Of a DNA stretch of 28,638 nt, positions 1 to 24,393 are shown piece by piece (within the stretch, counting starts at the first letter, position 1; every line of letters begins with the position of its first letter). The DNA is from Zygnema cylindricum. Its lineage: Eukaryota; Streptophyta; Zygnematophyceae; Zygnematales; Zygnemataceae. The notes below the pieces were generated by a model. It did not search any database. It was not told the DNA's origin and saw only the letters and a list, made by a program, of their open reading frames with translations. The stretch covers positions 64,001-92,638 of the forward strand of contig JBBHKE010002802.1 in NCBI GenBank assembly GCA_037447655.1. Direction: 5' to 3'. A program made the position numbers and the translations under genes.

Positions 1-443
1 TGAGTAATATTGACTGTACAATGATAGATTGGGTTGGCACGATCAAGAACACGTAGATCTCAGTAGGTGGGTTGATTCTGGACGTACCTCTCAGGTACAC
101 TGTTATCGGCGGTAGAACACCGAAAGTATAAGACTTAGGACTTAGAGCATTTTTAAGTATCCAGACTTCCAAGTAGTAAAACTGCATACAGTTTTTGGGA
201 AACTTCTGAGTATTATATCTTGAGTGTTGTTGGATCAATTGTGCTGAAACTTTGGGAGTTGTCAGTGTTTATGTTACTCTATATTCTGATAGAGTTTTGT
301 GAGATTTGGATGCTTGTATAAGAATTGGTGATCACTTAAGAACAGCTGTTTGGTAGGATTCTTGGTAGCTTCTAAGAGTGTATCATGTCTACTTCTACTA
401 CTACTGCTGCTCCTCCACCTGCACCGGTGGTTCTAGAACAACA
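1..443 (+). repeat. 5' LTR of element A (last 443 of 840 bp)
   Basis: Position 1 aligns to 5105 and position 443 to 5547 with no indel. It ends GAACAACA, immediately followed by a primer-binding site. The gag ATG at 385 lies inside this LTR, so the first 19 codons and two bases of the next codon are LTR-encoded. Confidence 0.93.
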
Positions 444-1443
444 GGTTATGGGCCTGTCATCAAGAATTCCTATCTTTTCCGAGGATAAGTATGTTTACTG
501 GGCGGATATGGTGGAGACACATTTTGAAAATGTCAATCTTTTGGATATATTGGATGGTTCTTTGGATGAATCTGATCCGTCATGGTCTAAGAAAAATACG
601 CAGGCTCGTTCTATTTTGAAATTTTGTATATCTGAGGACTTAGCTATGTCTCGGATAAAAATGAAAAAAGCAATTGATATCTGGAAATCCATTAAAAGTG
701 ATTATGAAAAGGCTAATGTTCAGGAACAACTTCTATTGGCTGGAAAAATTTGGGACTATAAGTACACTGGCGGTACAATGGCTGAATATTCTAACAAATT
801 TCGTATTCTTATAGATGCACATGCTTGTGCCGGTGGGGTGTTTCCTCAGTTTCAACAGGCAGCATTGCTCATGCGGGGTCTCCCTCGTAGTATGAAAGGA
901 GCATTTGACATGCTCAAACAGAAAGATAAAGCTAGCTGGACCTTACAGTTAGCAATCAATATTTTATTAGAGGAGGAAGCTACATCTAATATTCTCAATG
1001 TTGAGCAAGTAGAAGCTTTTAATTCAGAATTTGGAAAGAACGGTCAATTTAATCAGCAAAGTAATCAGTTTACACAATTGAGACAGTTTAATCTGGGGGG
1101 AAATAGAAAATCCAACAATGCATGTTTTTATTGTAGTGAGAGAGGTCATGGATACAAATTCTGTCCTAAACTTAAACAAGCTAACGATACAGGTTTATAC
1201 AGGCCAGGATGGCAACAAAGTCAGTTTTACAAAAACTTCACGAGGCCTACACCTCGTGGAAATGCACTGTTTTCAGCTTCTTCATCACTCCAAGACGAAA
1301 CTCTGACATTTTTTCTGAGGAGGACGACACGGATCTATTTGCTATGGCGGCAGCAATGGAAGGCACAAAGGACACTTGATGGATTATGGATACAGGAGCG
1401 TCAGCGCATATGTGTTGGAACAAGGCCATCTTCAAAAATCTGA
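385..1443 (+). CDS. gag: Gag of element A (frame broken near its end)
   Basis: Capsid/nucleocapsid precursor that packages the element's RNA into cytoplasmic particles. The 352-codon frame opens with an S/T/A/P-rich tail encoded within the LTR, followed by a copia-type Gag body (roughly residues 30-200). A CCHC zinc knuckle, CFYCSERGHGYKFC, has C247, C250, H255 and C260. From about residue 305 the frame no longer makes sense: an acidic stretch continues in another frame from about 1302, pointing to a one-base loss there. True homology therefore ends near 1302 and the last ~45 codons are out of frame. The ATG at 385 is the first in frame. Because it is in the LTR, Gag translation crosses the LTR/PBS boundary as Q-V-M. 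Confidence 0.9.
   Translation: MSTSTTTAAPPPAPVVLEQQVMGLSSRIPIFSEDKYVYWADMVETHFENVNLLDILDGSLDESDPSWSKKNTQARSILKFCISEDLAMSRIKMKKAIDIWKSIKSDYEKANVQEQLLLAGKIWDYKYTGGTMAEYSNKFRILIDAHACAGGVFPQFQQAALLMRGLPRSMKGAFDMLKQKDKASWTLQLAINILLEEEATSNILNVEQVEAFNSEFGKNGQFNQQSNQFTQLRQFNLGGNRKSNNACFYCSERGHGYKFCPKLKQANDTGLYRPGWQQSQFYKNFTRPTPRGNALFSASSSLQDETLTFFLRRTTRIYLLWRQQWKAQRTLDGLWIQERQRICVGTRPSSKI
444..457 (+). other. Primer-binding site of element A (half-tRNA, initiator Met)
   Basis: GGTTATGGGCC directly abuts the LTR end. It is complementary to the anticodon arm of eukaryotic initiator tRNA-Met (which contains GGCCCATAACC), not to its 3' CCA end. This is the priming mode known for Drosophila copia and yeast Ty5, where a cleaved half-tRNA is used. 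The next bases could pair only by G-T wobble. The site also lies inside the gag reading frame and encodes V-M-G. Confidence 0.8.
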
Positions 1444-1802
1444 AAGCAACGCCGGAGAAAAATATTTATTATGCTTGTGGAATGAGTGTCCAAACTCGTG
1501 CAATGGGTGATGTGTCCTTGCTAGTTGATGTGGATGGAAAACCAATTGAAAGGACTCTTCACAATGTCTTATTTGTGCCTGACTTTAAGAAAAATATGTA
1601 TTCTACGTCGTTGGTTGAGAGTAAAGGCTTTGAGGTCAGTTTGAAAAATGGTCGGCAGGTTGTTAGCAAAAACGGCAAGGTTGCGGTTATAGGTACTAGA
1701 GATAGTAGCAAGATGTATCGCATGGATATGGCTAATACAAAAGAAAATGATGTTATGTACTCCGGTGTTTCCACTCAGATGAGTTGTGGCATAAAAGATT
1801 AG
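1386..1802 (+). pseudogene. pol: Protease and pre-integrase part of element A pol
   Basis: Aspartic protease that would cleave the polyprotein. The active-site motif MDTGASAHM lies at the start of the open frame (about 1386-1412). In the same frame just upstream are an acidic linker (from about 1302) and a TGA stop (about 1375-1377). The rest matches the copia protease plus the segment before the integrase zinc finger (F-V-P-D-F-K-K-N-M-Y-S). The frame ends at 1802 only because of an indel near 1775: the integrase start (W-H-K-R-L-G-H) continues in another frame. Broken, but domain identity is secure. Confidence 0.85.
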
Positions 1803-2353
1803 GCCATGTCAACTATGATAGTTTGAAAAAAATGGTTGTTGCTGGAAAGATAGAGGGTGTATCAATCACAGATGGGCCGGTCAAAACTTGCGATGGTTGC
1901 GCTTTAGGCAAAATCCACAGATTGCCATTTCCTAACGAGTCTGAGCATCGGTCGACCACACTTTTACAACAAATTCATTCGGATGTCTTTGGTCCGGCGA
2001 AGGTTCCTTCTGCCGGAGGAATGAAATATATGGTCACCTTCACAGATGATTTCTCACGGTTTACAAAAGTTTACTTCATGAAGGAGAAGAGTGAAGTATT
2101 TGGTCACTTTAAACACTATAAAGCATGGGCTGAAAAACTTCATAATTCATCTATTTTGCAGCTCAGATCGGACAATGGTGGTGAATATACATCAAAAGAG
2201 TTTGAAACCTTTTTACTCGAGGAAGGCATTAGTCATCTACTGACTGTTCCATATTCACCGGAACAAAATGGGGTGTCGGAACGGCTGAATAGAACTCTCA
2301 CGGAAAGCTCTAGATCTATGCTCGCCGATAAAGGTGTGGATCCGAAATTCTAG
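1784..2353 (+). CDS. pol: Integrase zinc finger and catalytic core of element A
   Basis: Integrase joins the cDNA to host chromosomes. Counting from 1784, the HHCC finger is H3, H8, C36 and C39. The catalytic triad is D67 (H-S-D-V-F-G), D130 (R-S-D-N-G-G) and E166 (N-G-V-S-E-R), a textbook D-D-35-E spacing. The frame ends at a TAG (2351-2353) where family members normally have tryptophan (F-W-A-E), so this looks like a single G-to-A nonsense change. The frame is otherwise continuous with the downstream 2354-4612 segment. The start shown is just the first possible codon after the upstream frameshift, not a real initiator. Confidence 0.9.
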   Translation: MWHKRLGHVNYDSLKKMVVAGKIEGVSITDGPVKTCDGCALGKIHRLPFPNESEHRSTTLLQQIHSDVFGPAKVPSAGGMKYMVTFTDDFSRFTKVYFMKEKSEVFGHFKHYKAWAEKLHNSSILQLRSDNGGEYTSKEFETFLLEEGISHLLTVPYSPEQNGVSERLNRTLTESSRSMLADKGVDPKF

Positions 2354-4612
2354 GCTGAGGCTCTAAATTGTGCAGTTTATATTAAAAATAGGATAGGATC
2401 CAGATCGGTAGAAACAACTCCATACGAAATATACACTGGTAGCAAACCAGATGTTAGCCATTTCAAGGTCTTTGGTAGTCAATGCTTTATATTGGATACG
2501 TCTACAGATAGATGGAAAATGGAACCGAAGGGATTACCGGGTATTCTGTTAGGATATGATGATCACTCGAAAGGTTATAGAGTCTTTGTGTTTGAAAGGC
2601 AGAAAATAGTTGTAGCTAGAAACATCATTGTTAAGGATGAACTAGACTCCATAGATTTATTTCAAATGACAGAGCAGCAAAGGCAACAGAAAGTACAGGA
2701 GTATGTCATCTTAGATTGCATGCAGGAACTTGTCCCGCAGATTCCACAAACTCCGGTAATGACTCAGGAATCAGACTCCCTCCAACTTCCTCACCAACTT
2801 CGGGTCCAGACGGACCAAGAGCAGTCAATACAGACGGAACGCAATCAGCGCAATCACGAACACACGGATCGCAACCAGCGCAATCAGCAAGACACGGATC
2901 GCAACCAGCGCAACCAGCGCAATCACCGCAATGCGCGGGATCCGACGATCTCAGCCTCAGAATTTCCGGGGGGAAGAAGATCAAGCAGCCGCCTGCAAGC
3001 AAGCTCTCACTTTACCTACTCGGCAGTCTCAGGGGAGCCCTTGACCATCCAAGAAGCTTTCTCATCACCAGAGCGGAATCACTGGATTGAGGCGGCAAAC
3101 GACGAAATGAAGTCCATCATGGAGGCTCAAACATGGGAGCTCGTGGACCTTCCTCCAGACCGAAAAGCGATCGGCAGCAAATGGGTATTCAAGGTGAAGT
3201 TAAATCCCGATAACACCATTGAACGCTATAAGGCCAGACTTGTGGCGAAGGGGTACAATCAAAAGGAAGGAATCGATTTTGAAGAAACATTTTCTCCGGT
3301 TGTAAGATTTCCAACAGTTAGGATTTTGCTGTCCCTAGCTGCTATAGAAGATATGGAAATTCATCAGATGGATGTAAAAACGGCCTTTTTGAATGGAGAA
3401 CTAGAAGAGACCATTTACATGCAGCAACCTGAAAAGTATGTAGAACCAGGAAAAGAGCACTTAGAATGCAAGTTGCTAAAATCTTTGTACGGCCTAAAAC
3501 AGGCCCCGAGACAGTGGAATATAAAGCTTGATGAATTCTTGACTAGTCTAGGATTTCAAAGGATAAGTTCTGATCACTCTGTCTACGTTCTAAAGGGTGA
3601 AAATGGGATAGTGTATATAGCGGTATATGTAGATGATTTGCTATTAATTAGCAAATCAATGGCTGAAATTAACAAAATCAAAACTGCTCTAAACTCACGG
3701 TTCGAGATGAAAGACCTCGGTGAGGCAAAATATATTTTGGGTATCCAGGTAGAGAGGGACAAAAACAAGAAAATAATAAAACTGACTCAAAAAGAGGCTA
3801 TTGGAAACATGTTAGATGAGTACGGAATGCGGGGGGCAAAAGGGTGTTTAACTCCAATGGAGTTTCGGCAGAAGTTAGAGGGAGAAGAGACAGAACCAGG
3901 TGTTATTGTTAGCGAGTATTTAGAATCAGGGGAGAATGATCCTATGGCAATAATACCTTATAGACAGATAGTGGGAAGCTTAATATACTTCATGAACTGT
4001 ACCGGTCCTGACATTGCTGCAGCAGTCGGGGTACTGAGTAGGAGTCTAGAAAATCCGAGAAAATCTGATCTGGATGCAGCAAAGAGAGTCTTAAGATATT
4101 TGGCAGGAACTAAAGATCTCAAACTCACTCTAGGCGGAGGAGAAATCAAGCTGCAAACATGGAGTGATGCAAGCTATGGCGACATGCCAAGGCGGAAATT
4201 TACCACGGGATTCGTTCTACAAATTGGGAACGGTACTTGCTGCTGGAGCAACAAACTTCAAAAGGTGACAGCACAATCGACAATGGAGTCCGAATATATG
4301 GCAGCAAGCTTGGCCCTCAAAGAACTCTTATGGGCAAAATCCATGTTACAAGAACTAGCATACATGCAAGTTGGTCCACAGGTGATCTGGTGTGATAACC
4401 AGGCTGCCATTGCCATTGCTTCTAACCCGAGTCATCACTTCAAAAGCAAACACATGGATGTACGATTACACTTTGTAAGAGAAAAAGTGTTCTCTAGAGT
4501 GATTAAATTATGTTACTTACCACATGCAAAAATGATTGTTGATATGCTCACTAAAGCTCTTCCTGCTCCTAAGCTGAAGTATTGTAGGGAAGCAGTGGGA
4601 TTAAGTGAATAG
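2354..4612 (+). CDS. pol: Integrase C-terminus, reverse transcriptase and RNase H of element A
   Basis: Same frame as the integrase core after the TAG at 2351; open for about 750 codons to TAG at 4610-4612. In order: the integrase C-terminal region (P-Y-E-I-Y-T-G-S-K-P, then G-Y-R-V-F), a low-complexity linker of repeated N-Q-R units (about 2815-2940), reverse transcriptase from about 3085 (G-S-K-W-V-F, V-A-K-G-Y, M-D-V-K-T-A-F-L-N-G, and catalytic Y-V-D-D-L-L at 3626-3643), and copia RNase H from about 4155 (D in W-S-D-A-S, E in M-E-S-E-Y, D in W-C-D-N-Q). It copies the RNA into DNA within the particle. All catalytic residues I can place are present, so this half is intact; the breaks lie upstream. 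Confidence 0.95.
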   Translation, partial: AEALNCAVYIKNRIGSRSVETTPYEIYTGSKPDVSHFKVFGSQCFILDTSTDRWKMEPKGLPGILLGYDDHSKGYRVFVFERQKIVVARNIIVKDELDSIDLFQMTEQQRQQKVQEYVILDCMQELVPQIPQTPVMTQESDSLQLPHQLRVQTDQEQSIQTERNQRNHEHTDRNQRNQQDTDRNQRNQRNHRNARDPTISASEFPGGRRSSSRLQASSHFTYSAVSGEPLTIQEAFSSPERNHWIEAANDEMKSIMEAQTWELVDLPPDRKAIGSKWVFKVKLNPDNTIERYKARLVAKGYNQKEGIDFEETFSPVVRFPTVRILLSLAAIEDMEIHQMDVKTAFLNGELEETIYMQQPEKYVEPGKEHLECKLLKSLYGLKQAPRQWNIKLDEFLTSLGFQRISSDHSVYVLKGENGIVYIAVYVDDLLLISKSMAEINKIKTALNSRFEMKDLGEAKYILGIQVERDKNKKIIKLTQKEAIGNMLDEYGMRGAKGCLTPMEFRQKLEGEETEPGVIVSEYLESGENDPMAIIPYRQIVGSLIYFMNCTGPDIAAAVGVLSRSLENPRKSDLDAAKRVLRYLAGTKDLKLTLGGGEIKLQTWSDASYGDMPRRKFTTGFVLQIGNGTCCWSNKLQKVTAQSTMESEYMAASLALKELLWAKSMLQELAYMQVGPQVIWCDNQAAIAIASNPSHHFKSKHMDVRLHFVREKVFSRVIKLCYLPHAKMIVDMLTKALPAPKLKYCREAVGLSE

Positions 4613-4617
4613 TTGAA

Positions 4618-4700
4618 TTGCTGCACTGCTATATTGCTATGCTGCGATACTGCGCTAGTTTATCACCGCAGCTGTGCTGGTATACTGAGTCTAAAGCTTT
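4618..4700 (+). repeat. Short CTGC/GCTAT-rich 3' untranslated stretch of element A
   Basis: Between the pol stop and the polypurine tract the sequence repeats ctgcactgctatattgctat-like units. It resembles the GCAGC/GCTGCTATAC units found just inside the LTR, suggesting the repeat spread across the LTR boundary. No coding potential is claimed. Confidence 0.5.
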
Positions 4701-4707
4701 AGGGGAG
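4701..4707 (+). other. Polypurine tract of element A
   Basis: aggggag immediately precedes the TGTTGT that opens the 3' LTR, the expected plus-strand priming site. Confidence 0.8.
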
Positions 4708-5547
4708 TGTTGTCTTTTGGAAAGCTCTCAGTCTCTCAGAGCAGCGCAGCAGCGCAGCAACTATACAGACAGCAGCGCAGCTGCTATACGGAAGAGCAGC
4801 GCAGCTGCTATACAGCAGAGCTGCACAGCAGTGGAGCTGCAGAGCAGCGCAGCAGCGAAGCTGCAATACTGACAGGACAAACGCAGCTGCGGTCACTTTG
4901 GATAAGATCCGTACAGACAACGCAGCTGCTACTATCTTGGATATGATTTGGTGCAGGACACCGCAGCCGCGGGTGATATAAATGTGATCCGGTACGGGAC
5001 AACGCAGCTGCGATTAATATGAATCTAGTCAACTGACAAGATTCTTAATAGTATCACAAGTGACTTAGCCGACAAGTATTTGTACAGTAACTTAATATAG
5101 AATCTGAGTAATATTGACAGTACAGTGATAGATTGGGTTGGCACGATCAAGAACACGTAGATCTCAGTAGGTGGGATGATTCTGGACGTACCTCTCAGGT
5201 ACACTGTTATCGGCGGTAGAACACCGAAAGTATAAGACTTAGGACTTAGAGCATTTTTAAGTATCCAGACTTCCAAGTAGTAAAACTGCATACAGTTTTT
5301 GGGAAACTTCTGAGTATTATATCTTGAGTGTTGTTAGGTCAATTGTGCTGAAACTTTGGGAGTTGTCAGTGTTTATGTTACTCTATATTCTGATAGAGTT
5401 TTGTGAGATTTGGATGCTTGTATAAGAATTGGTGATCACTTAAGAACAGCTGTTTGGTAGGATTCTTGATAGCTTCTGAGAGTGAATCATGTCTACTTCT
5501 ACTACTACTGCTGCTCCTCCACCTGCACCGGTGGTTGTAGAACAACA
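4708..5547 (+). repeat. 3' LTR of element A (840 bp)
   Basis: Runs from TGTTGT after the polypurine tract to ACAACA at 5547, followed by non-element DNA (ttaaggtag). It contains GCAGC-rich repeats, four ~41-bp tandem units, a possible TATA box (tataaat, 4977-4983), and near its end an orphan copy of the gag start (ATG at 5489) that meets a TAA just outside the LTR. Confidence 0.92.
4735..5037 (+). promoter_or_regulatory. Repeat-rich U3 with recurring GCAGCTGC
   Basis: 4735-4870 is a degenerate series of agcagcgcagctgctatac units. It is followed by four units of about 41 bp starting near 4875, 4916, 4957 and 4998, each opening with a close match to gacaacgcagctgc and most continuing with a gat(a)-rich stretch and ggtac. 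The palindrome GCAGCTGC contains CAGCTG, an E-box core. Tandem U3 repeats commonly act as enhancers in retrotransposons; that role is inferred here. Confidence 0.6.
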
Positions 5548-6003
5548 TTAAGGTAGTCCGTTGATCGTATAGAGGGACCGTGGTTGGAGTGGATAAGTGT
5601 TAATCCACTTGTATTGATCATTGCATTTGTCCAGCTTTCCTTGCTTGCTATCTGGCCCTGAGTGGCCTTGGCTGAGTTTGCTTTGCCCGAAGTGGGATTT
5701 CTTCCATAGATCTTGCCGTTGGAGGCATTGGTTAGCACTTTTGTGGAGTGTGCCGCTTTAGATCTGCACTTGGGAGCGCTTGGATAGTAAGTTATTTGCC
5801 TTTATAGATCTGGCCCTTCGGCCTTGTCCCCTTGTTTGCAGGGTAGAAGGTTTTGGTAATACGGCTTCCTGATAGATCTGGCCATCGAGGCCCTGTTAGA
5901 GATTGATTGGCTGATTGGACAAAAGAATGGTGTGGCCGTGCATTTGAAGCATATCGGATAGATCGGCTTTGTTATCTGGTCATCATTTGGTGTTATCATT
6001 TTT
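5548..6003 (+). other. Leader of element B downstream of the element A insertion
   Basis: Untranslated stretch of 456 bases ahead of the gag ATG. It contains a spaced series of AGATCT-type words each followed by a short GGCC or TGCC inverted repeat (near 5651, 5708, 5759, 5806, 5874 and, weakly, 5959). No long reading frame is convincing. It is probably the 3' part of the 5' untranslated region, where packaging and dimerisation signals would be expected. Confidence 0.6.
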
Positions 6004-7256
6004 ATGCCCACCGATTGGGATAATCTTGATTATCCTGTCGGAACCACTCGATCGTCGGCCTCGTTTAGGCCCACGGAATCCGCACCATCAGATTTTTCTA
6101 GTCTTTTGGACCATCATTTTCTAAATATTTCGGGTCAAATTTCCCCTTCGGTTCGATCTACTCTCACCTCGGTATCTTCCTTATCATCAGTCTCTTCCAC
6201 ATTTTTCGAAGAGGAACCTGACCACGATTCCCTTGACGGGTCGAATTCCGATTCATTATCTTTTTGGTTTCCACAAATTACCAATCCAGTTTTATCCCCT
6301 AGCATTCCATTATTGGAAATGGCTTCCACATCCGAGGGAGGGGGGCGCCTTCATTTCTGTTTTTCAGGAATGAAGGACACCATGACTTTATCGCATTTTC
6401 GCATGCTATTCGATACCGAAATGCGTGATCTTGCATTTCGGTACCAAGATCGGTTTGACCTACGAGTCGCTTTCTCTCTTTTAGGTCGTTACCTTCGCGG
6501 TTCATACCTTACTCTTTATTCCCGCAAGTATGATTCCGTACTTGCGATGACTGAGTTTTCTCCAGCGTTCGCTGGGAGTCCTGCTATTATAGGACAACCA
6601 GAAATTCCTTATCAACCGGCTATCCCGGAAGTTCTTGATCTCAACGGCGATGTTATTACAGCAGCAGTTGCGGAAATACCGCAACAGTTTGCTATAGCCG
6701 CACGTGCTGGAATTCCAGCACGACCAGCGATGACTATCCCTATATTGGATCCGCTCTCTGTCATGTTTGAAATGTTGCAAGCGGAATACCGTATGCAAAA
6801 CCCTGACCAAGTTCGCGAGTTAATGAACTTCGAACGGAAGTCAGGAGAGACTGCCCCTGCCATGCGTGCTCGTATGGAAGCTCTTCGTGAAGCATTGCCG
6901 GACTTAATGTCGGATGCTGAAGCTGTCCAAAAATTTGTAGGACAGTTTCCGAGTCAGTCTAAGAAGTTTATCCAGAGTCACTTGACTCAAACGTATGGCT
7001 TGAAGTTCACTTTCCACCAAGCCGCCCAGCATGCCGTGGAATTCGAAATGCAAAATTGTTGGTGGGAAGCCCATGACCAACCTAAAGTGGTCCCGAAAGA
7101 ACCGATTGTTCCACCATGGAACAATCCTCGTCCTAACAACCAGCCTCCTAAAGTCCCGCCCATGGGAACCCCACCTGTTGCTCCCGGAAACCGATTATGT
7201 TTCCGATGTGGGAAGACCGGGCATGATGCCCGAATGTGTCCAGACAAAACTGCTAC
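6004..7256 (+). CDS. gag: Gag of element B, N-terminal 417 codons up to the LTR insertion
   Basis: Structural protein of the particle. An S/T/D-rich N-terminal region (residues 1-100) is followed by a Gag fold with a proline/alanine-rich insert (about 190-250), the conserved retrotransposon-gag segment (about 255-345), a proline-rich linker, and a first CCHC knuckle CFRCGKTGHDARMC near residue 400. The ATG at 6004 opens a clean frame. As the DNA now reads, the frame runs 14 codons into the inserted LTR and stops at 7299. True gag continues beyond the LTR at 8309. Body free of stops, unlike the RT section. Confidence 0.88.
7252..7256. repeat. Target-site duplication GCTAC, left copy
   Basis: The same five bases recur at 8309-8313 directly after the inserted LTR. 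Confidence 0.9.
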
Positions 7257-8308
7257 TGTAGAAACTAATGGTTTTAAAGTATTTTCTAGGTCTGAATAGA
7301 AATAAAGAAGCCGAGGCAGTCTACCTCTAACTTCTCTCTCCAAACTCTCAAACTTGTCGCAGTCACTGAGAAATTGGAGAGGAAGCTGGAGCCATGGCTA
7401 CCTAGGCTATCCTGAGGTTTACGGGAAATTTATACTAGTTAGGGAGGAGATTATTTACTAAAAGGTATATGCCGGCCACAGGATTTGATCCTAGTACCTG
7501 CCGGCCGACAGATAGTAGATAGCCGGTAGCCTTAGCCGTTAGGTCTAGAAGTAGTCTTACGTATTATATAGTACGATAATTAATTAAACATTAATTCGTA
7601 GGATAAATCATTTAACTATAGTTGTTAACGGGATACATAGATCTGGTATGTAAAAGTACGAATTGCGGTACGGATAAAGAATCAATACCGCGCATAGATT
7701 TCGTAAGCGAAACAAATACCGCGCATGTATTTATTACGGCTACGATCAAATACGAGTTTAATCGGACGGCCGGAATTAGCGCCGAGATCGCGGAAGAAGA
7801 ATTTGGCGGTTTGTGGGCATCGCCACATCGGATGACACGTGGCGATGTCACATTGGAGCGCGGCATCTCCGAGGATTAAAGGAGCGAATCCGGACATACC
7901 ACGTGTCGACATTTAGGGCATGTCGTACAGTGTCCGTACATAAAGTACACCGGCAGCTGTACTTTTGCGTACGGAACTGTAATCTGATTGGTTCCGTACA
8001 TCAGTAGATAGAGTCTGTGAGAGAGATAGGACTTAGAAAAATTAGAAGATAGGACCCTCTCTCCCAGAGAGCTTCTGTACAAAAGGTCAACTTTGACCCT
8101 CCATAACTTACTGCTCAGGGGAGCAAATTCAGAGATTCTTTTTGCTATCCACTCAGGGGAGTCTTGTCTTCACAGGGGTGAAGTTGATCAAAGTTTTTGT
8201 TTGTCAGGGTGGCAGTTATTTTTGCTGAAACACAAAGGGGTCAGGGTTATCCTAGAGGCTTCTTGGAAGCTGTCCACTCTGAGGACTTATGGAGGTCCCA
8301 GAGTTTCA
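7257..8308 (+). mobile_element. Solo LTR of the element E copia family inserted in gag of B
   Basis: 1052 bp starting TGTAGAAAC and ending GAGTTTCA, bounded by GCTAC duplications. It matches 23366-24393 along most of its length (for example the cttgtcg...ccatggct block, the gcggatgacacgtgg block and the gagcaaattca block) and its first ~70 bases match 21949-22016. No internal region remains, so it is a solo LTR left by LTR-LTR recombination. The site corresponding to the TATA box of the other copy (24162-24169) reads tacaaaag here. An ATG at 8289, 20 bases from the LTR end, is the family's LTR-embedded gag start. Short frames in it are spurious. Confidence 0.9.
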
Positions 8309-8533
8309 GCTACCTGTACACATTGCAAGCAAACCGGACATTATGTCCATCGTTGTCATATAAAAAACCCGGAATATTCCTATCAGAACCAAATTAAAAG
8401 TGGTGGCATCCCCGCTCGATCTGCAAGACCGGTTCAACCGGTTAAAGAACCGGAGAAAGACACCACTCCACCTAAGGTATCTCGAAGAGAGAGAGAGCGT
8501 TTAGAAATGCAAGAGCAAATGGCGTGTGGGTAA
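8309..8533 (+). CDS. gag: Gag of element B, C-terminal part after the LTR insertion
   Basis: Starts with the right copy of the GCTAC duplication and reads in the same frame as 6004-7256 once the LTR and one duplication copy are discounted. It carries a second CCHC knuckle, CTHCKQTGHYVHRC, then a basic/proline linker ending in a charged R-R-E-R-E-R-L-E-M-Q helix and a TAA at 8531-8533. B's Gag therefore had two zinc knuckles with the insertion between them. The last ~100 bases overlap the antisense methyltransferase frame. Gag-like content stops near 8525, where the methyltransferase similarity begins. Confidence 0.8.
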   Translation, partial: ATCTHCKQTGHYVHRCHIKNPEYSYQNQIKSGGIPARSARPVQPVKEPEKDTTPPKVSRRERERLEMQEQMACG

Positions 8534-9366
8534 GAAACTAAGGTAGGAAGCACCTTGAGAGCTTGACCCGGGACATTGACACTAAAATTAGGGGGACAAT
8601 CTTTTTGAATGCAAGACTGCGCCTTATGAAAAGGAAGAAGGGCAGCCTGAATGTCTGTAGGAGGAGGACGAACTAACAAGTTGGCCTCCCGAAGTCTACC
8701 AATATCGATCAGGTTCGTCCATTTGGAGCGAACCCAGTCTGCTAGTGAACCATGGCGAGCCGCATCAATAATAAGAGGCGGACCAATTAATTGTTCGATT
8801 CGTTGATAATCAGCCAAAACCGTAGGTCTTGGATCATTATAGGCCGCGACATTTTCCAAGATATACCCCATAGGATAATCTAAAAAGTGTAGAAAATGCA
8901 AGATGCGAACCAACTCAAAAAATAATTTGGTGCGGGGATCGGCTAATCCGAGACCTTTCTTGGCCCGGGACATTCCCTGGCACTCCCATCCGCCAAAAAC
9001 TAGATCGATTGGACCAATCTCCAGTAAGTGATGGTTGCCCTCAATCCGGATATCTTGTGGGAGGGCAGTATGCATATGCTCGTATGCAGATTTCGGGAAC
9101 AAATGCGGGTATTGGGAATGCAATAGATTACAATGATGTAATTGTGCTTTCCGTGCTAACGGATCAATCTCCACCGAATAATAAAATCGGATTAATAATC
9201 CGTTCCGCAAACATGCAAGGAGAGAAGTGCCTATTCCAGCGAAAAGGTCCAAAATCACTAATCCATTTGGATGAGGTTTCAATTGGACCGGATTCCAATC
9301 AATGGGAAGAAACCCAGAAGAGTCTGTAGGGATTGAGATTGGGGAAGAGATCGGAGAAAGTGGAAT
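8434..9366 (-). CDS. Cytosine-5 DNA methyltransferase-like protein, antisense inside element B
   Basis: Open for 310 codons on the minus strand. Numbering from the TTG at 9282: motif I LDLFAGIG (11-18, SAM binding); motif II-like V-E-I-D-P-L (37-42); motif IV G-G-W-E-C-Q-G (97-103) with candidate catalytic C101; motif VI I-L-E-N-V (141-145); a motif VIII-like stretch D-A-A-R-H-G...W-T-N (173-190); then K-V-L-P-T-L-V-S-Y-P (243-252). It would transfer methyl groups to cytosine C5 in nuclear DNA. Odd points: P-C of motif IV is E-C, motifs IX/X are absent, and no ATG precedes motif I although the frame extends upstream to 9366. The tail after residue ~254 is antisense of gag and probably not part of the domain. 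It occupies the place of the protease and RT N-terminus. Related proteins in algal and dinoflagellate retrotransposons are known; activity here is unproven. Confidence 0.8.
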   Translation of the reverse strand: MPLSPISSPISIPTDSSGFLPIDWNPVQLKPHPNGLVILDLFAGIGTSLLACLRNGLLIRFYYSVEIDPLARKAQLHHCNLLHSQYPHLFPKSAYEHMHTALPQDIRIEGNHHLLEIGPIDLVFGGWECQGMSRAKKGLGLADPRTKLFFELVRILHFLHFLDYPMGYILENVAAYNDPRPTVLADYQRIEQLIGPPLIIDAARHGSLADWVRSKWTNLIDIGRLREANLLVRPPPTDIQAALLPFHKAQSCIQKDCPPNFSVNVPGQALKVLPTLVSYPHAICSCISKRSLSLRDTLGGVVSFSGSLTG

Positions 9367-9466
9367 TTACAAGGTTTGGTTATAGATTCGGTCAAATTCC
9401 CTCGAGTCTATAAGAAAACCTGGATCACTAAAAAGAGATTTCGAGGGAAATTTTACTGAACGTCGA

Positions 9467-10104
9467 ATGTGTGGTGACTATCGTGAACTAAATGCTAGAA
9501 CACTTCAAGATCGTCATCCCATGCCTCTTGCCGAAGAAATATTTGATCATGTAGGCGGAGCAAATTATTTTAGTATCCTTGACCTCCGTCAAGGATTCAA
9601 TCAAATCGAGATAGAGGAGAAAGACTGGCATAAAACTGCCTTTTGGGGTAGCGACGCCCGATGGGAATGGGCCGTAATGCCATTCAGACTGAAAAATGCT
9701 CGGGCAGTATTTCAAAAAGTCATGGACTCCGTTCTTGGAGGCTGTAAGTTTGCTAGATGTTACATCGATGACCTCATCATTGCCTCGGCTACTACGAAGA
9801 GCACGCTGCTCACATCGAATGGGTATTGACTGAATTGAAAAAGGTCCGATTAAAATGTCATCTAGCGAAATGCACCTTTGGAGGCGAGGGAGTGCCTTAC
9901 CTCGGCCATTTTATCTCGGCTGAGGGGATCACTCCTCTCGAAGCAAAGGTAGAGGCAATCAGTAAATTGCCTGCTCCTGCAGATCTCACAAGTCTGCGAG
10001 CCTTTCTCAGACTTGCTAATTATTATCGCAGGTTTGTATCTAATTTTAGCACCATCGCATCTCCGTTAAATGACCTTCTCAAGAAGGAAATGGCGTTTAT
10101 ATAG
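9467..10104 (+). pseudogene. pol: Reverse transcriptase of element B, N-terminus missing
   Basis: Copies element RNA to DNA. The fingers/palm start is seen as R-M-C-G-D-Y-R-E-L-N and the frame stays open some 20-25 codons upstream of 9467. Catalytic D39 (I-L-D-L) and Y-I-D-D (residues 99-102 from 9467) are present, with M-P-F-R-L-K-N-A-R where most gypsy elements have M-P-F-G-L-K-N-A-P. A frameshift just after Y-I-D-D (about 9790-9800) moves homology to the frame ending at 10104 (Y-L-G-H-F-I-S, L-R-A-F-L-R-L-A-N-Y-Y-R-R-F). That frame ends at a TAG where tryptophan is expected. About 80 N-terminal residues usual in the family are absent; upstream lies the antisense methyltransferase. Confidence 0.87.
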
Positions 10105-10556
10105 GGTCCCGATCAGATTTCCGCATTTCAAAAATTAAAAACCGCTTTATCGAGTGCTCCAATTCTTCGTCCTCCCAATCACAAACTCCCTTTTTGTCTC
10201 CAAACAGATTTTGGGAAACCCGGAATCGTTGCCATTTTGACACAATGGGAGTTGAGCGGAGAGGAATACGTAGTTCCTTCGCGAGTAGGAGCAGTAATCG
10301 CGTTGAATCAAATTATAGTAGCTACGAAAGAGAGTGTCTAGCCGCGGTTTGGGGAGTCGTTCACTTCCGCAATTATTTGTACGGAAAACCTTTCACACAC
10401 CTAACTGACCATCAACTGTTACATTGGCTGATAACGAACGATAAGCTTTTCGGGAAGCTAGCCTGATGAGCTTTAATCTTACAAGAATATGACGTTGAAA
10501 AAATTCACCGACCCGGTCTGCTTAGTCTAAACGCAGACTGAATTTCCATAAATCCT
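10105..10556 (+). pseudogene. pol: RNase H and connection of element B
   Basis: Continues from reverse transcriptase after the TAG: F-Q-K-L-K-T-A-L, then L-Q-T-D-F-G (first acid), a frameshift near 10275, N-Y-S-S-Y-E-R-E-C-L-A (second acid), L-T-D-H-Q-L-L-H-W-L (third acid). It degrades RNA in the RNA:DNA hybrid. At 10464-10469 two consecutive TGA codons stand where family members have R-W, and a further TGA lies near 10539, after which the frame leads straight into the integrase. The catalytic acids are present but the frame is broken. Confidence 0.83.
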
Positions 10557-12155
10557 TTGCCCCGAACAACAGATAACAAAGTTCGACAGGATTTCGATGA
10601 CGACGATGTTCCCGTCATGTCAATGGGTTCTTATCTTACTTACTGCCTGGCGTCTATTCCGAACCCCCGTCCCGCCACAGATCCTTGGCGTGATGGGCCT
10701 CTCATTCTTTTCCTATCCTCCCAGACCTTCAGGTCCGGCACCACCTCTGATGAAGAAGACAGAGTGAAAAAGAGGGCCAAAAGTTACCTTTGGCTCGGGG
10801 GATCTTTAGTTCGGTTGTTGGCAGACGGAAGCCATAGGCACGTTCCACGGCCTACCGAGCGTCTTTCTCTCATTGGGCAGATTCACACCGAGCTTGGTCA
10901 CTACGGTACCAAGCGAACGTTAAGTCTAGTTCAGGCACGGTATTGGTGGTCAGGAATGCAAGCTGATGTCGCTGCTATTCTACACAAGTGTGCCACCTGC
11001 GACCGTCTCCGAACTTCTTTCTCTAACCGGCAGACTACGCTCCAACCTCTACCTATTAGAGGTTTATTCTATCGATGGTCGGTCGATCTGGCCGGACCTT
11101 TTCCTATCTCGCGTAGGGGTAAACAATATATCATGATTATGATTGAAAATTTCAGTAAGTGGGTAGAAGTCGTAGCCCTGCCTCACAAGACCGCTAAGTT
11201 AACCACCGCAGCTTTTAAGGAACATGTCTTTATGAGATACGGTGCCCCAGCCGAGGTCCTTACGGATCAAGGTACAGAATTTCGGGGAGAATTTCAAGAG
11301 ATGCTTGATGAGGCTCTCATCGATCATCGTCGTACTAGTCGGGATCACCCCCAGGCCGATGGCCTGGCTGAACGAGCAGTCCAGACATTTAAGCGTGCCT
11401 TGCGTAAGCATTGCTTAGAAAAACACATTTCAGTTTGGGACGAGTCCCTCGGTTACATTACCATGGGATATCGCATGTCGGTTCAGGCTAGTCTGGCTAA
11501 TTTCAGTCCGTATTATGTTTTATTTGGGCGACAACCGTTGCTTGGTCGCAATATTCAGAAGGCCGCAAGCTTCCCACTTCCGCTGATGTCTGACACTATT
11601 TTTTTGGAAGAACTCACTCGTCGTGCTTTGCTTTTTGCCCGTGAAATGCCCATGGCTTTTGATAACTTGCAGATTGCCCAGCATCGGGACACACTTCGGT
11701 TTGCCACCACTCGCAGCGGCAGTTACAGGCCGCAACAAAAGCCCTATCGGGTGGGAGATTATGTTTATCTTCGCAGGCATTCTTTTGACACTTTGGACAC
11801 AGATGTTTCTGCACACATCCTACGAATAATCGAGGTGGATCCGAACGGGATGTTGGGATTACAAGGAGCGAACACGCGGACTTTTCGAGAGCACTCTAAG
11901 AATTGTGCTCCATGTTACTTACCAGATTTGTCGCAGGATATGGATCCTATGCGGATGCCGATTACGGAGGCGACGGCATGTACCTTTTGTCATCGATCGG
12001 ACGGGGAAACTACCATGTTACTTTGTGATCATTGCAATCAGGGGTTTCACATGGAGTGTTTGGTGCCACCTTTATTGGCAGTTCCGGACGGTCACTGGTT
12101 TTGCCACGGATGTCGCGAGCTAACGGTCGTGTTGGCCAGCTCCTCTGCCGGCTAA
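10557..12155 (+). CDS. pol: Integrase of element B with a C-terminal PHD finger
   Basis: Open for 532 codons. HHCC zinc finger: H110, H115, C145, C148. Catalytic core: D177 (W-S-V-D-L-A-G), D237 (L-T-D-Q-G), E272 (G-L-A-E-R), 34 residues after the second D. The C-terminal domain around 405-450 contains the gypsy R-V-G-D-Y-V-Y module. At 475-519 follows a complete C4HC3 PHD finger: C475, C478, C490, C493, H498, C501, C516, C519, with the usual M-L-L-C-D core and V-P-D-G-H-W-F-C end. PHD fingers bind histone H3 tails, so this module probably steers integration, in the position where chromoviruses carry a chromodomain. The indicated start is only the first codon after the upstream stop; the protein would be made from a Pol precursor. 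Least damaged part of pol. Confidence 0.93.
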   Translation: MPRTTDNKVRQDFDDDDVPVMSMGSYLTYCLASIPNPRPATDPWRDGPLILFLSSQTFRSGTTSDEEDRVKKRAKSYLWLGGSLVRLLADGSHRHVPRPTERLSLIGQIHTELGHYGTKRTLSLVQARYWWSGMQADVAAILHKCATCDRLRTSFSNRQTTLQPLPIRGLFYRWSVDLAGPFPISRRGKQYIMIMIENFSKWVEVVALPHKTAKLTTAAFKEHVFMRYGAPAEVLTDQGTEFRGEFQEMLDEALIDHRRTSRDHPQADGLAERAVQTFKRALRKHCLEKHISVWDESLGYITMGYRMSVQASLANFSPYYVLFGRQPLLGRNIQKAASFPLPLMSDTIFLEELTRRALLFAREMPMAFDNLQIAQHRDTLRFATTRSGSYRPQQKPYRVGDYVYLRRHSFDTLDTDVSAHILRIIEVDPNGMLGLQGANTRTFREHSKNCAPCYLPDLSQDMDPMRMPITEATACTFCHRSDGETTMLLCDHCNQGFHMECLVPPLLAVPDGHWFCHGCRELTVVLASSSAG

Positions 12156-12170: not shown

Positions 12171-12362
12171 AATAAACCGACCTAACCATAACCAGCTAAG
12201 TCGTTGACCTTTCTTTTCCTTCCACCTCCCTTGTTGTTGTATTTATCCATTTTTACTTTTGTGTTTTATTTTGTTTACGATATCTCGCTATTATTTGAGT
12301 TTAAGTTGAGCGCAGCTGATGATATTGCATGCACCTTCATGTTATTTGACACATGCACGACA
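12171..12362 (+). repeat. Extra copy of the LTR 3' end of element B (192 bp)
   Basis: Near-identical by eye to 13831-14022, the last 192 bases of the 3' LTR; both end gcacgaca. Two bases (gc) then separate it from the TGTC that opens the full LTR. The copy starts about 36-43 bases downstream of the TATA position, close to where transcription should begin, so it corresponds roughly to R-U5 without U3. Confidence 0.85.
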
Positions 12363-12464
12363 GCTGTCATGCCGCATCTCGTCGGCCATTTAGTTGTTTA
12401 TATTTAGGTGTTAGGAAGGGCAGCCGCTACACTAATTTGTATTTGGGTATTATTTGGGTTTCGC

Positions 12465-12910
12465 AGGACCGTACGACGTGTACCGTACGACCTAGATTTT
12501 TCGTGATTTCCGGTATGGCAATTTGGGTCGTACCCGCGGTCCTACCGTACGACGTATCTTTTCCGCGATTTCCGCCGACGGCGGATTTGATTATTTCGCG
12601 TCGACCGTACGACTTACGTCGACCGGAATTCCCGCGGCCACAAATTGGACCGTACTTGCGGTCCTGCCGTACTTATTTATTTTTTCCGGATTTCTCGCCG
12701 ACGACACATTTTCGAATCGCGTCGAGACAAACAAACTTACCGTATTATATATATTTTGCGCGATTCTCGCCGACGGTAGCTTTGATCATTTGACGTCGAC
12801 CGTACGACTTATATTATCCGGAATTCGCGCGACGACAAAGTGGACTGTATCTGCGATCCTGCCGTACAAGCTTTCATTTCCTTGAATCCCGGCCGACATC
12901 AAATTTTAAT
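12465..12910 (+). repeat. ccgtacgac-rich diverged tandem repeats in the LTR of element B
   Basis: Blocks such as ...cgccgacg...cgtcgaccgtacgactta...ccggaattc...gcggtcctgccgtac recur two to three times with a period of about 190 bases plus shorter partial copies. The palindrome cgtacg and cgtcgac recur. Possibly U3 enhancer repeats. Confidence 0.55.
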
Positions 12911-13787
12911 CATTTCGCGCGGAGTAGCATCTCGACCGTCGACGCAAAGTATACGATTCTCGTAATATCTCATCTTGACCGTTGACGCGTGTGACAGACA
13001 AAGATACTGTCAGTTCTGACGAAGCTACGCTATTGGACTATTTTAAGTCGTGAACCATTTGGAGGTTCACGCATTCACATGTAGATAGGAAGGGTTTTAA
13101 TCCGTAGGTTATAGATTTTGTAACGTAGGGCATAGGATTTCGGCTTCCTATTGGCTGAATCCAAACTAGACGCAAATATTTGCATAGCACGCTGTACTTT
13201 GATTGGCTTGTTTTCGCTAGGCGTAGTTTTGGTTACTTAGTTCATTTCGCATCATTTCTTGCACACAATTTTCAAGTGCAGGAATTATTCATTTGATTTA
13301 TTTTCAGTATTGAGGATTCTCTGCAGCCATCTTTTTATTTGTGAAATTGTCCGGACAGCTTAGAGGCGATTTTCTGCCTTTGCGTGAAGCGTCTAGTTTT
13401 CTATTATATTATCATATCTTGTAAAGCCTTACAAATTAATCTATACGGCTTCGGCTAAGACCTACACGGTTTCCCTTCATTTTTCTCATCTTTTTGAGTG
13501 GATTTCGACCGCGATCTCACAACACAAACTTCTTTCCCGATTGTGGCTGAACTTTAATTAGTGTGGAAGTTGCATGTTGGAATTATTGTTGTGTTGTTTT
13601 TATTTATTGTGATTTTGTATTTATTTCTATTTGGCTTTTGCGCATCTTTTGAGTTTGGTTATCTCAAACCTCATAAGTGTCGGGCATATTGTCATTTGCG
13701 GTTTTTATTTATCTCTCCCGGTTGTTTGATTTATTATATTTAAGTATAAATTCAGATTATCCTTGATAAGATAACTCCTGCAAGGAA

Positions 13788-13795
13788 TATAAATA
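13788..13795 (+). promoter_or_regulatory. TATA box of element B LTR
   Basis: tataaata in ggaatataaatagactg, about 36-43 bases upstream of the 192-bp repeated end segment, as expected for the start of R. Confidence 0.65.
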
Positions 13796-14022
13796 GACTG
13801 TGGGGCCTAGTGGTCATCCATCGGCTTAGTAATAAACCGACCTAACCATAACCAGCTAAGTCGTTGACCTTTCTTTTCCTTCCACCTCCCTTGTTGTTGT
13901 ATTTATCCATTTTTACTTTTGTGTTTTATTTTGTTTACGATATCTCGCTATTATTTGAGTTTAAGTTGAGCGCAGCTGATGATATTGCATGCACCTTCAT
14001 GTTATTTGACACATGCACGACA

Positions 14023-15260
14023 CCGGGATGGCAAAGGAGGTGTCGAAACACGTGGAAAGTTGTGTCTTTTGCCAACAGAGTAAACCTAGTAACCAAAAAC
14101 CTAGAGGTCTCTTAAAACCATTAGATATCCGCAAAAGACCATGGGAATTTATCAGTATAGATTTCATTGTCAAGTTGCCAGCTACATCTAGAAGAAATGA
14201 AAGTATCATGGTCGTAGTCGATAGGTCCAGTAAAATAGTTATCTTTATCCCTTACAAAACTACTCATTCAGTTGTAGATATTGCAAAGTTATATTTTGAC
14301 AACGTGGTTAGACATCATAGAGTTCCCCTGTCTATAGTCAGTGATAGGTATTCTAAATTTAGGTCTGGATTTTGGAAATAATTGCAACAAAATTTACGCA
14401 CTGAATTAAAAATGAGTACCTCTTATCATCCTCAGACAGATGGACAGATATAAAGGATGAACTCTACACTGGAAGAAATGCTTAGGATTGTTTGTATTCG
14501 AGCTCATAACAGATAGGAATCTAAACTGCCATTAATAGAATTTGCATACAATTCATGTAAACAAGCTAGTACAGGATTCTCACCATTTGAAGTTGCATAT
14601 GGATACCAACCCCGAAAATCATTAGGCTTTATAACGAGGTCACTTAAGAGAATATAGTTTCTGGAAGAGAGTTTTGGGAATACATTAAAACAATTTGGAA
14701 AACACTACGGGATGCATTAGTGGAGACACAAAGGAGGCAAAAATTAAATGCTAACCGCAAACGAGGTGATTGGGTGGTAAGCACAGGTGACAAGGTTTAG
14801 CTTTCTACAACTCATTACAATTACAAGATCGATTGACAATCGGATCCTACGGGGAAATTTGCTCCTAAGTACATTGGACCATTTACTGTAATCGAGATGA
14901 TATCGTCAGTTGCTGCCAAATTGGACTAACCGCCTTCAACAAAAATTCATCTAGTAATACACATCAGTCAGTTGAAACTAGCAAATCTTCCACCAACTGA
15001 TGGAGAATTGAAATTAGAACCCTCAATAATTATAGAACTTGAGGTCCACAAATGGGTAATAGATTGGGTTGGTCAACAGATCTAAGTCAGAAATACTATA
15101 TTGTGGCAACTGCATCATCTAAGAAGGCCAAAAGATGAGTTGACTTTAGAAGATAAAAATTCTGAGTTTTTACAAAGGTATTGGAGGGATACTAATATAG
15201 AAGTCCCGTCTTTAGAGTGAAATGTGCTTTAACTAAGGTCGGTTAAAAATAAGGAGGGGA
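14023..15260 (+). pseudogene. pol: Element C: gypsy integrase C-terminal half with chromodomain-like tail
   Basis: Starts mid-integrase at the LTR end of element B (G-M-A-K-E-V). The second half of the zinc finger is C-V-F-C-Q-Q; the catalytic core shows I-D-F-I-V, I-V-S-D-R-Y-S-K-F and, after a stop near 14380, Y-H-P-Q-T-D-G-Q. At least six further stops follow. The end has F-T-V-I-E-M-I, H-I-S-Q-L-K-L-A and a stretch starting I-I-I-E-L-E-V, placed and spaced like a chromodomain, so this is probably a chromovirus. The N-terminal part would lie beyond the 5' LTR of B. It differs clearly in sequence from B's integrase. Old and inactive. The apparent ATG at 14013 belongs to the LTR, not to this gene. 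Confidence 0.85.
15251..15260 (+). other. Polypurine tract of element C
   Basis: aaggagggga precedes tgatgtaaca, a typical gypsy tract-plus-LTR start. Confidence 0.7.
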
Positions 15261-20182: not shown

Positions 20183-20523
20183 TAGTGTTGTGTATCAGTG
20201 AATTTCGTATCGGCGATAAGTTCAATAACCGATATATCGATTATTTTTGGTAATTACGATATATCGTTATTGGTAATTAAATCCCGATATATCAGTACTA
20301 ATAACCGATCATAGTTGATTATCGATGTAAACCCTCGGGAGAGGGGGGGGGCTCAACGCGGAGGGGGGCCTGGACATATTTTCTATGTAGGGAAACGAGA
20401 ATTTGAGTACGTAGCAGAGATCTATAAGTATGAAGTACAAATCGATATACGTATTGATTATCGATAGGTAGAAAAATATATACATATCAGGTATTGGTAA
20501 AAGGCTTCCGATTCACAACACTA
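20183..20523. mobile_element. hAT-like MITE with tatcgat-rich interior
   Basis: Ends TAGTGTTGTGTATCAG and CCGATTCACAACACTA are imperfect inverted repeats (13 of 16 match). Flanks are A-rich (aaaaacac / aaaaaata), compatible with a decayed 8-bp duplication. Copy 1 of the host repeat (around 19335-19350) shows the uninterrupted site ctacaaaaatagcgac. The interior has many cgatatatcga words and a G-rich patch at 20339-20370. Confidence 0.65.
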
Positions 20524-20655
20524 AAAAAATAGCGACGGTTGTATACGTCTAGTTTTTTGTGGCACTCTCGAATTGTACGGTTTTGTCACTAAAAAAATAG
20601 CGACGGTTGTATACGTCTAGTTTTTTGTGGCACTCTCGATGTGTACGGTTTTGTG
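20520..20655. repeat. 68-bp tandem duplication
   Basis: Two adjacent units (20520-20587, 20588-20655) differing at about two or three bases. The unit starts actaaaaaaatagcgacgg and ends at gtacggttttgt. Confidence 0.85.
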
Positions 20656-21948: not shown

Positions 21949-22016
21949 TGTAGAAACTAATGGTTTTATTAGTATTTTCTAGGTCTGAAAAGAAATATAG
22001 AAGTCGAGGCAGTCTA
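21949..22016 (+). repeat. Truncated LTR start of the element E family
   Basis: About 68 bases starting TGTAGAAAC match 7257-7322, the start of the solo LTR in element B, with about five or six differences. Similarity stops at the ATG of the MULE frame, so the rest of this LTR was lost or displaced. Confidence 0.8.
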
Positions 22017-23365: not shown

Positions 23366-24393
23366 TGTTGAAAAAGGTATTTTCTAGTTTTCTACTTATG
23401 TTAGTCTGTACTAGCTCTTCTTAAGTCCTCACACTTGTCGAAGTCTCTGAAGACTTGAGACGGCCATGGCTGCCTTAGGCAGACAAGAAGATAGACCAAG
23501 GGAGCAGGAGGAATAGCCCTTTGCAAAAGATAGGCAGACCAAGGGAGCAGGAGGAATGGCCCTTTGCAAAAGATAGGCAGTCAGACTATGATTTGATCCC
23601 AGGTCTTACAAGATGACTGCCGTACAGAGTAGCCGTCTGTTGTATCCATTAGGTCTTTGATCAAGTGTTACACACATGGGGTACGATTCATATTTAAAGA
23701 TGTACTCATGGAAGTATTCCATTTAACGGATTACAGGTCGAAAAGTACATAGGACCAGCTCAGATGCACGATATAAACTGAACGCACAAAATGAACAAAA
23801 CAACATTTACCTGAACAAAAAGGAATAAATGTCAGTTTTGGATCGGGCGGATCCCATTAGAGCTCATGTACCGGAGTGAAAATTTGGCGGTTTATAAGGG
23901 CGACATCATCGGATGACACGTGGCAAGATATCAGTGGGTAGCGGATATTATAGGGAGAGGAACCATGGCTCCAGATCTGACAGGAGTCAGCGGGACGGCC
24001 ATGCCATACCATGGTCGTACAAGAAGTACAGCAGCATCTGTACCTTCTTGTACTGTAGAGTCTTTTGATTGGTTATGTACATCAATAGTAGGGGGTTCAG
24101 GGAGGAATCTAGGACTTAGGACTTAGTAAGTTTGGGGCGCCTATGTCTGAGAGTGCTTATGTATAAATAGACCATCTTTGGTGAGCTATAACTAACTCCT
24201 CAAGGGAGCAAATTCAAAGATTTCTTTTGCGTCTAACTCAAGGGAGTCGCACCCTCAGAGGGATGAGGTTGGTCAGAATATTTGTCAAATTGGGTGGCAC
24301 TTAGTCAGTGGGAAAATCAAAAGGGAAAATATTATCCTAGAGGCTTTTTATAAGCTGCATATTATGTGGGCCAATTGAGGCCACATAATTTTA
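23366..24393 (+). repeat. 5' LTR of element E
   Basis: Diverged copy of the solo LTR at 7257-8308, starting near tgttgaaaaagg and ending cataatttta directly before a primer-binding site. It contains a TATA box (tataaata, 24162-24169) and a 46-bp tandem duplication (about 23489-23580). The LTR-embedded gag start of the family has decayed here: ATG reads ATT and an in-frame TAA follows. Frames within it are not genes. Confidence 0.82.

Follow-up and report, generated by a model that had tools for sequence, protein, structure and literature searches.

An antisense DNMT3-like methyltransferase frame in Zygnema cylindricum very probably reflects a one-off inversion in a damaged copy of a Gypsy-type retrotransposon family

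Retrotransposons that carry a cytosine methyltransferase have been reported from charophytes and dinoflagellates (de Mendoza et al. 2018, PMC5890265). In KnitGypsy-Dnmt3 of Klebsormidium nitens, the Dnmt3 domain lies within the Gypsy Pol frame, the repeats are DIRS-like, and Ka/Ks was given as below 0.2. For SymbioDIRS-Dnmt3 of Symbiodinium, de novo CG methylation by the isolated domain was reported in yeast; the yeast result for KnitGypsy was negative, and the authors call it inconclusive. They proposed that in their elements the enzyme methylates new cDNA (PMC5890265). According to a 2025 paper (PMC12344493), some DNMT3 members are embedded in retrotransposons, of which LTR Copia and DIRS are named. 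The 2018 report had already been cited in a preliminary description of the present locus, made from the letters alone, and it proved to be the correct comparison.

The locus lies in a 28,638-bp stretch of the Zygnema cylindricum genome (contig JBBHKE010002802.1, positions 64,001 to 92,638), hereafter the window. Reading-frame analysis of the window yielded a 310-codon minus-strand frame at 9366–8437, with its stop codon extending to 8434. As had been described, the frame is antisense to a Ty3/gypsy-type element on the plus strand (element B), in which it lies between gag and RT. A Pfam search had been proposed in the preliminary description, and the frame matched DNA_methylase (PF00145) with 41.2 bits and an E-value of 1.8e-10 (cut-off 22 bits). 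When it was compared by sequence with solved structures, the top match was DNMT3A (E 9.2e-8). The motifs LDLFAGIG (residue 39), ECQG (residues 128–131) and ENV (residues 171–173) were found, and motifs I, IV (Cys) and VI (ENV) of an active DNMT3-type methyltransferase were all present. Among 11 aligned sequences, the window and nine others read WECQ at motif IV, where PCQ is usual; the remaining one, the predicted protein P0011, had FPCQ.

The extent given for the frame stood in part. The methyltransferase-derived part covers 9366–8525 only, and alignment to native copies showed that the last 29 codons (8524–8437) are the reverse strand of the Gag tail. The domain itself is fragmentary. When the genome was searched with the 310-aa query, the matches ended at query residue 280–288 in 110 of 129 rows. 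The native domain has 335 residues in several copies and the window breakpoint is at residue 282, so that the final ∼55–70 residues are missing, including the C-terminal motifs IX–X. In motif VIII, the window reads ADWVR where its relatives read AHRVR; across 15 aligned sequences, the H replaced here did not vary and the first R hardly did. From its sequence, the fragment in the window would be inactive, and this copy would make no active enzyme. The stop codon 5′ of the antisense frame was due to a TCA to TAA change relative to the copies L083 and L085, within the inverted native frame. Because the earliest Met (residue 98) comes after motif I, the suggested expression of the enzyme opposite to the element's own direction is unlikely.

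The features of element B are collected in Table 1. Its 5′ leader, or part of it, was matched at 76–96% identity in 11 of the 50 loci compared. The 5′ repeat A and ∼470 bp preceding the leader are missing, and at 5547/5548 the sequence abuts a copia fragment. This copia element occupies 1–5547 of the window; 1–443 and 5105–5547 are 98% identical and take in the LTR together with the beginning of gag (ATG at 385), an arrangement that resembles a tandem or recombined copy. Within element B, gag was interrupted by a solo LTR flanked by a 5-bp target duplication, GCTAC, at 7252–7256 and 8309–8313. When the empty site was restored, Gag continued in one frame with two zinc knuckles. A zinc-knuckle frame at 8093–8533 was considered as a separate gene and rejected; its second half is the Gag tail severed by the solo LTR. 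LTR pieces related to the solo LTR were also observed at 21949–22016 and between 23428 and 24357, separated by ∼1.4 kb of other sequence and coming before the copia-like sequence at the window end. At its 3′ end, the window copy retains a B-A-B arrangement of terminal repeats, and a 170-bp pair with 74% identity was noticed inside repeat A (12543–12907). Directly 3′ of the element, a fragment at 14013–14381 resembles a second gypsy-type integrase, with neither profile match reaching its cut-off (H2C2 E 0.0013, rve E 0.003); element B may have landed inside it. Tandem duplications were seen at 20519–20654 (68-bp units) and 23493–23578 (43-bp units). Rfam and tRNA scans of the window gave no matches.

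Table 1. Features of element B in the window
Feature	Position	Strand	Evidence or remark
5′ leader	5548..6003	+	96.5% identical to L129 1042-1497
Gag, first part with first zinc knuckle	6004..7256	+	zf-CCHC
Solo LTR (TG..CA) of a copia element, 1052 bp, later insertion into gag	7257..8308	+	target duplication
Gag tail with second zinc knuckle	8314..8524	+	up to 96.7% identical to native copies (L083)
Inverted block: linker and ∼280 codons, most of the DNMT3-like domain, C-terminal part gone	8525..9434	-	Pfam, alignment
Reverse transcriptase and RNase H, split among several frames	9431..10541	+	RVT_1, six-frame pieces
Integrase (H2C2, rve), single open frame	10542..12152	+	Pfam, integrase search
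PHD finger, C-terminus of integrase	11979..12113	+	PF00628, E 2.9e-10
Terminal repeat B, first copy	12171..12362	+	100% identical to 13831-14022
Terminal repeat A, 3′ copy	12365..13830	+	opens with TGTCATGCC, as does the 5′ end of the C1344 element
Terminal repeat B, second copy; element 3′ end (..CA)	13831..14022	+	repeat comparison

By comparison with native copies, it was found that 8309–8524 was collinear with native gag and the sequence from 9431 onward with native RT. The 910 bp at 8525–9434 matched the native block in reverse, with 96.5–96.6% identity to the forward sequences of L082, L083 and L085 (best L082, 96.6%). The matching segments in L083 are located at 161–376, 1419–2327 and 3233 onward. 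Beside the inverted block, ∼1.04 kb was lost on the 5′ side, which carries the protease, and ∼0.9 kb on the 3′ side; the C-terminus of the enzyme is also gone. The left join was blunt, and the right join shares 4–5 A. With the block inverted and the protease lost, a methyltransferase in frame with pol is absent from the window copy. A 161-bp probe across the left junction gave a full match in the window only; among the best 40 of 232 candidates, the other 39 ended at query position 83–85. Likewise, among the best 40 of 263 candidates for the right junction, the other 39 began at query position 71–72, and only the window spanned it. Within this assembly and these searches, the antisense orientation is private to the window copy. 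These results indicated that the methyltransferase is antisense in the window because this copy is rearranged. Element B is very probably a damaged copy of a family that encodes the methyltransferase in the forward direction, in which a 910-bp piece was inverted in a one-off event and the enzyme was inactivated. The flip may have occurred during reverse transcription or break repair.

In a rival reading, the block would derive from a sister copy, a fragment of which was inserted backwards during repair, and the element's own protease-methyltransferase region would have been lost. The two deletions flanking the block fit such an event, and the nearest copy varied by segment (gag tail, L083; block, L082; RT, L117), although the short 3.8-kb loci could not rank first for RT because they do not span all of that segment. 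However, L117 alone was 96.2, 95.4 and 96.2% identical to the gag tail, block and RT segments, respectively, and a simple inversion takes one event plus trimming, so we consider a sister-copy insertion unlikely. An assembly error, with the contig misjoined inside a repeat of more than 100 copies, is judged quite improbable. The orientation does rest on a single assembly and the junctions fall within a high-copy family, but it would be unusual for an error to produce two clean junctions at a distance of 910 bp and sequence losses to either side. Moreover, the block is not a plain duplicate of a compared copy, because it carries changes that these lack, namely H210D (versus six copies) and the upstream stop (versus two copies).

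It was also considered that the inverted copy might act as a trigger, in which a plus-strand transcript antisense to the family mRNAs could seed small RNAs. Over its 910 bp, the reversed block has ∼96% identity to sense copies, so that pairing with family mRNAs would be extensive. But a copy without the 5′ repeat is probably without its own promoter, and its gag is interrupted by the solo LTR; such a role would be very improbable. A one-off inversion in a damaged copy remains the preferred reading.

The assembly searched comprised 352.8 Mb in 2689 contigs, with the 310-aa frame as query. The 129 rows obtained corresponded to the window, 126 single-row copies and one copy in two rows (C819), which gave at least 127 other copies of the methyltransferase domain; this number is a lower bound, because the best 128 of 1634 candidates were scored. 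The suggestion that the element family carries its own cytosine methyltransferase was thus borne out. Fifty loci were compared in detail: 30 of 3.8–3.9 kb, the window among them, and the 20 ranked next, of 8.8–9.9 kb. The 49 non-window copies are the best-scoring ones rather than a random sample, and 78 further copies lie outside the count. In all 49, the methyltransferase shared its strand with the adjacent protease and/or RT, and none was antisense. Three of them (L112, L118 and L125) had an additional Gag, protease or integrase piece on the opposite strand nearby. A stretch similar to the protease of the predicted protein P0006 was found in 46 of the 49, and in L125 it occurred on the opposite-strand neighbour only. 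Where gag, block and RT segments were all present, they were in forward order in 27 of 28 copies; in the exception, L125, the gag piece is opposite, and block and RT agree. It had been asked in the preliminary description whether other copies have the same arrangement or it exists in this copy only. The orientation was private to the window and the presence of the methyltransferase was not, so the antisense arrangement could not be kept as a property of the element. That the family carries a methyltransferase gene antisense to gag-pol and expressed from the minus strand has next to no probability: the 310-codon open frame with its motifs in order is met by 0 of 49 other copies antisense to the adjacent protease or RT, by two junctions seen in the window only among 40 scored matches each, by a first Met at residue 98, and by a domain with the motif VIII H and R replaced and its C-terminal part missing.

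Integrase positions gave a similar picture. For the non-window methyltransferase-integrase pairs within 4.5 kb, the integrase was downstream on the same strand in 30 of 31, with C1272 counted twice since its integrase was in two rows. The exception was found at G000 C46:193050-193898 and 189768-191381, on opposite strands and 1.7 kb apart, which may represent two elements or another rearrangement. Fifty-one integrase rows (C1653 accounting for two) had no methyltransferase within 4.5 kb among the best 128 of 1634 candidates. These included integrases on C1002, C2234, C1063 and C1506 with 90–91% identity to that of the window, and methyltransferase-free subfamilies may exist. Of the 83 rows from the integrase search, 73, among them that of the window, extended to at least residue 522 of the 537-aa query. 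As the PHD match spans ∼480–524 in this numbering, these rows run through the PHD finger or nearly so.

The native organization was best seen in L120 (contig C1344), a single open frame of 2395 codons. Its domain order was Gag zinc knuckle, protease, DNA_methylase, RVT_1, RNase H, integrase (H2C2 and rve) and PHD. The profile E-values were 2e-11 for DNA_methylase (PF00145), 1.4e-29 for RVT_1, 2.6e-34 for RT_RNaseH and 1.7e-11 for rve, and the PHD finger was located at residues 2338–2382 (E 1.5e-9); Asp_protease_2 (E 0.012) and zf-CCHC (E 0.0086) were under cut-off. Two repeats were identified around this frame. Repeat A (85514–86444 and 94981–95911) was 100% identical between its copies, and repeat B (94737–94978 and 95912–96154) was 99.6% identical, giving a DIRS-like layout of A-coding-B-A-B with TG..CA ends. 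A 4-bp target duplication, TTGG, was recognized by eye. Because its two A repeats are 100% identical, the C1344 copy is regarded as young.

The AlphaFold2 model of the L120 methyltransferase domain (335 aa, 15 sequences) had a mean pLDDT of 88.7. When this model was compared with the PDB by Foldseek, the best 50 of 192 matches (E ≤ 0.001) were all DNMT3 entries, with a best E-value of 3.7e-18. By its predicted fold, the enzyme of the family, which lies inside the Pol frame, is a DNMT3-class methyltransferase.

For the analysis of selection, 12 open domains (11 and the window) were available from 48 full-length domains among the 50 loci. The native methyltransferase showed a median pn/ps of 0.18 over 36 non-window pairs between subfamilies, a value obtained with saturated synonymous sites and biased low because open frames alone were used. 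In a separate dN/dS run, the medians were 0.20 (methyltransferase, 5 usable pairs), 0.36 (RT, 36 pairs) and 0.07 (integrase, 1 pair); the conclusion on selection is drawn from the pn/ps comparison and not from this run. The sequences suggest that diverged lineages keep the same methyltransferase protein, probably under purifying selection. A dN/dS calculation had been proposed for the window frame itself. There, the changes private to the window versus six near copies (6 nonsynonymous and 5 synonymous) were too few to test selection and on their own give no sign of its relaxation; the estimate applies to the native domains. The median CpG observed/expected ratio was 0.87 for the family copies (49 loci); for two copia stretches within the window, the ratios were 0.65 and 0.46. 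The family copies are not strongly CpG-depleted, which argues against a heavy mutational trace of CG self-methylation.

Relatives of the domain were found among proteins predicted from public genomes and metagenomes; no K. nitens sequence was recognized among these matches. In P0006 (1279 aa) and P0011, one forward frame combines the methyltransferase with regions resembling Gag and protease, and the Gag stretch of the window at 6325–7278 showed 35% identity to the Gag of P0006. P0007 and P0012 have a protease followed by the methyltransferase, and P0008 and P0002 likewise but more weakly. P0008 is labelled jgi/Mesvir1 by its source and is taken here to be from Mesostigma viride. The protease matches had E-values of 1e-6 (P0006), 4e-7 (P0007) and 7e-5 (P0012); those of P0008 and P0011 were weak (E 0.03–0.05), and that of P0002 was called by eye. 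Like the family, these six proteins thus have a protease-like region before the methyltransferase, which is 32–47% identical to the window domain; unlike in the family, no RT or integrase was found in the same predicted frame. In another protein, P0009, the methyltransferase was followed by an integrase with no RT match between them, and a second methyltransferase-like stretch was noticed by eye at the protein end (residues ∼1080–1210).

In a tree of 29 rows, the window domain fell within a clade from its own genome (support 100/100), and it was set together with ten other proteins apart from 7 bacterial or phage rows. In this tree, phage_L022 is a long branch, and P0003, P0004 and P0010 are assigned to elements by their tree position alone. 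A scan of viral contigs returned 80 loci, which were taken for ordinary phage or bacterial methyltransferases; six of them were used as outgroups. Recent capture from a phage or bacterium was considered and rejected, since the domain clusters with other element-like methyltransferases and not with the 7 bacterial or phage rows used.

By analogy with the described elements, the methyltransferase of intact copies would be made as part of the polyprotein and then packaged, and it probably methylates new cDNA inside the particle, before or at integration. The PHD finger is a likely histone reader, judged from its profile match, and may steer integration by a histone mark. Combining the two, the family might be a reader-writer retrotransposon, in which one polyprotein picks chromatin by a histone mark and lays down or pre-sets methylation on its own cDNA; we offer this as a tentative possibility and hold it to be somewhat doubtful. 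The window copy alone could presumably do none of this. In place of an antisense methylation writer, a claim that is now removed, the locus leads to a Gypsy family that has many members, encodes a DNMT3-like enzyme and carries DIRS-like repeats; one copy (C1344) is young and open from end to end. As the enzyme appears to be kept across diverged subfamilies, it becomes possible to test why a transposon carries a silencing enzyme. With its PHD finger, the family also offers chromatin targeting as a concrete hypothesis.

Compared with the known systems, the family shares with SymbioDIRS-Dnmt3, as described in PMC5890265, a DNMT3 domain in Pol and DIRS repeats, but it has a DDE integrase where SymbioDIRS-Dnmt3 has a tyrosine recombinase. 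The likeness to KnitGypsy-Dnmt3, as that element is presented in the same paper, extends further. Both have the Gypsy domain set, a DNMT3-class enzyme within Pol, many copies, apparent purifying selection on the domain and the DIRS-like A-coding-B-A-B repeat layout, and the Gypsy order PR-RT-RNase H-integrase with a DDE (rve) integrase is present in the L120 frame. Two differences were recognized: the window copy itself is inverted and broken, and the family has a PHD finger after the integrase, whereas PHD and chromodomain do not occur as words in the main text of PMC5890265. Likened by these features, the Zygnema family resembles the known but rare KnitGypsy-Dnmt3 type as a further representative, with the PHD finger as a possible extra.
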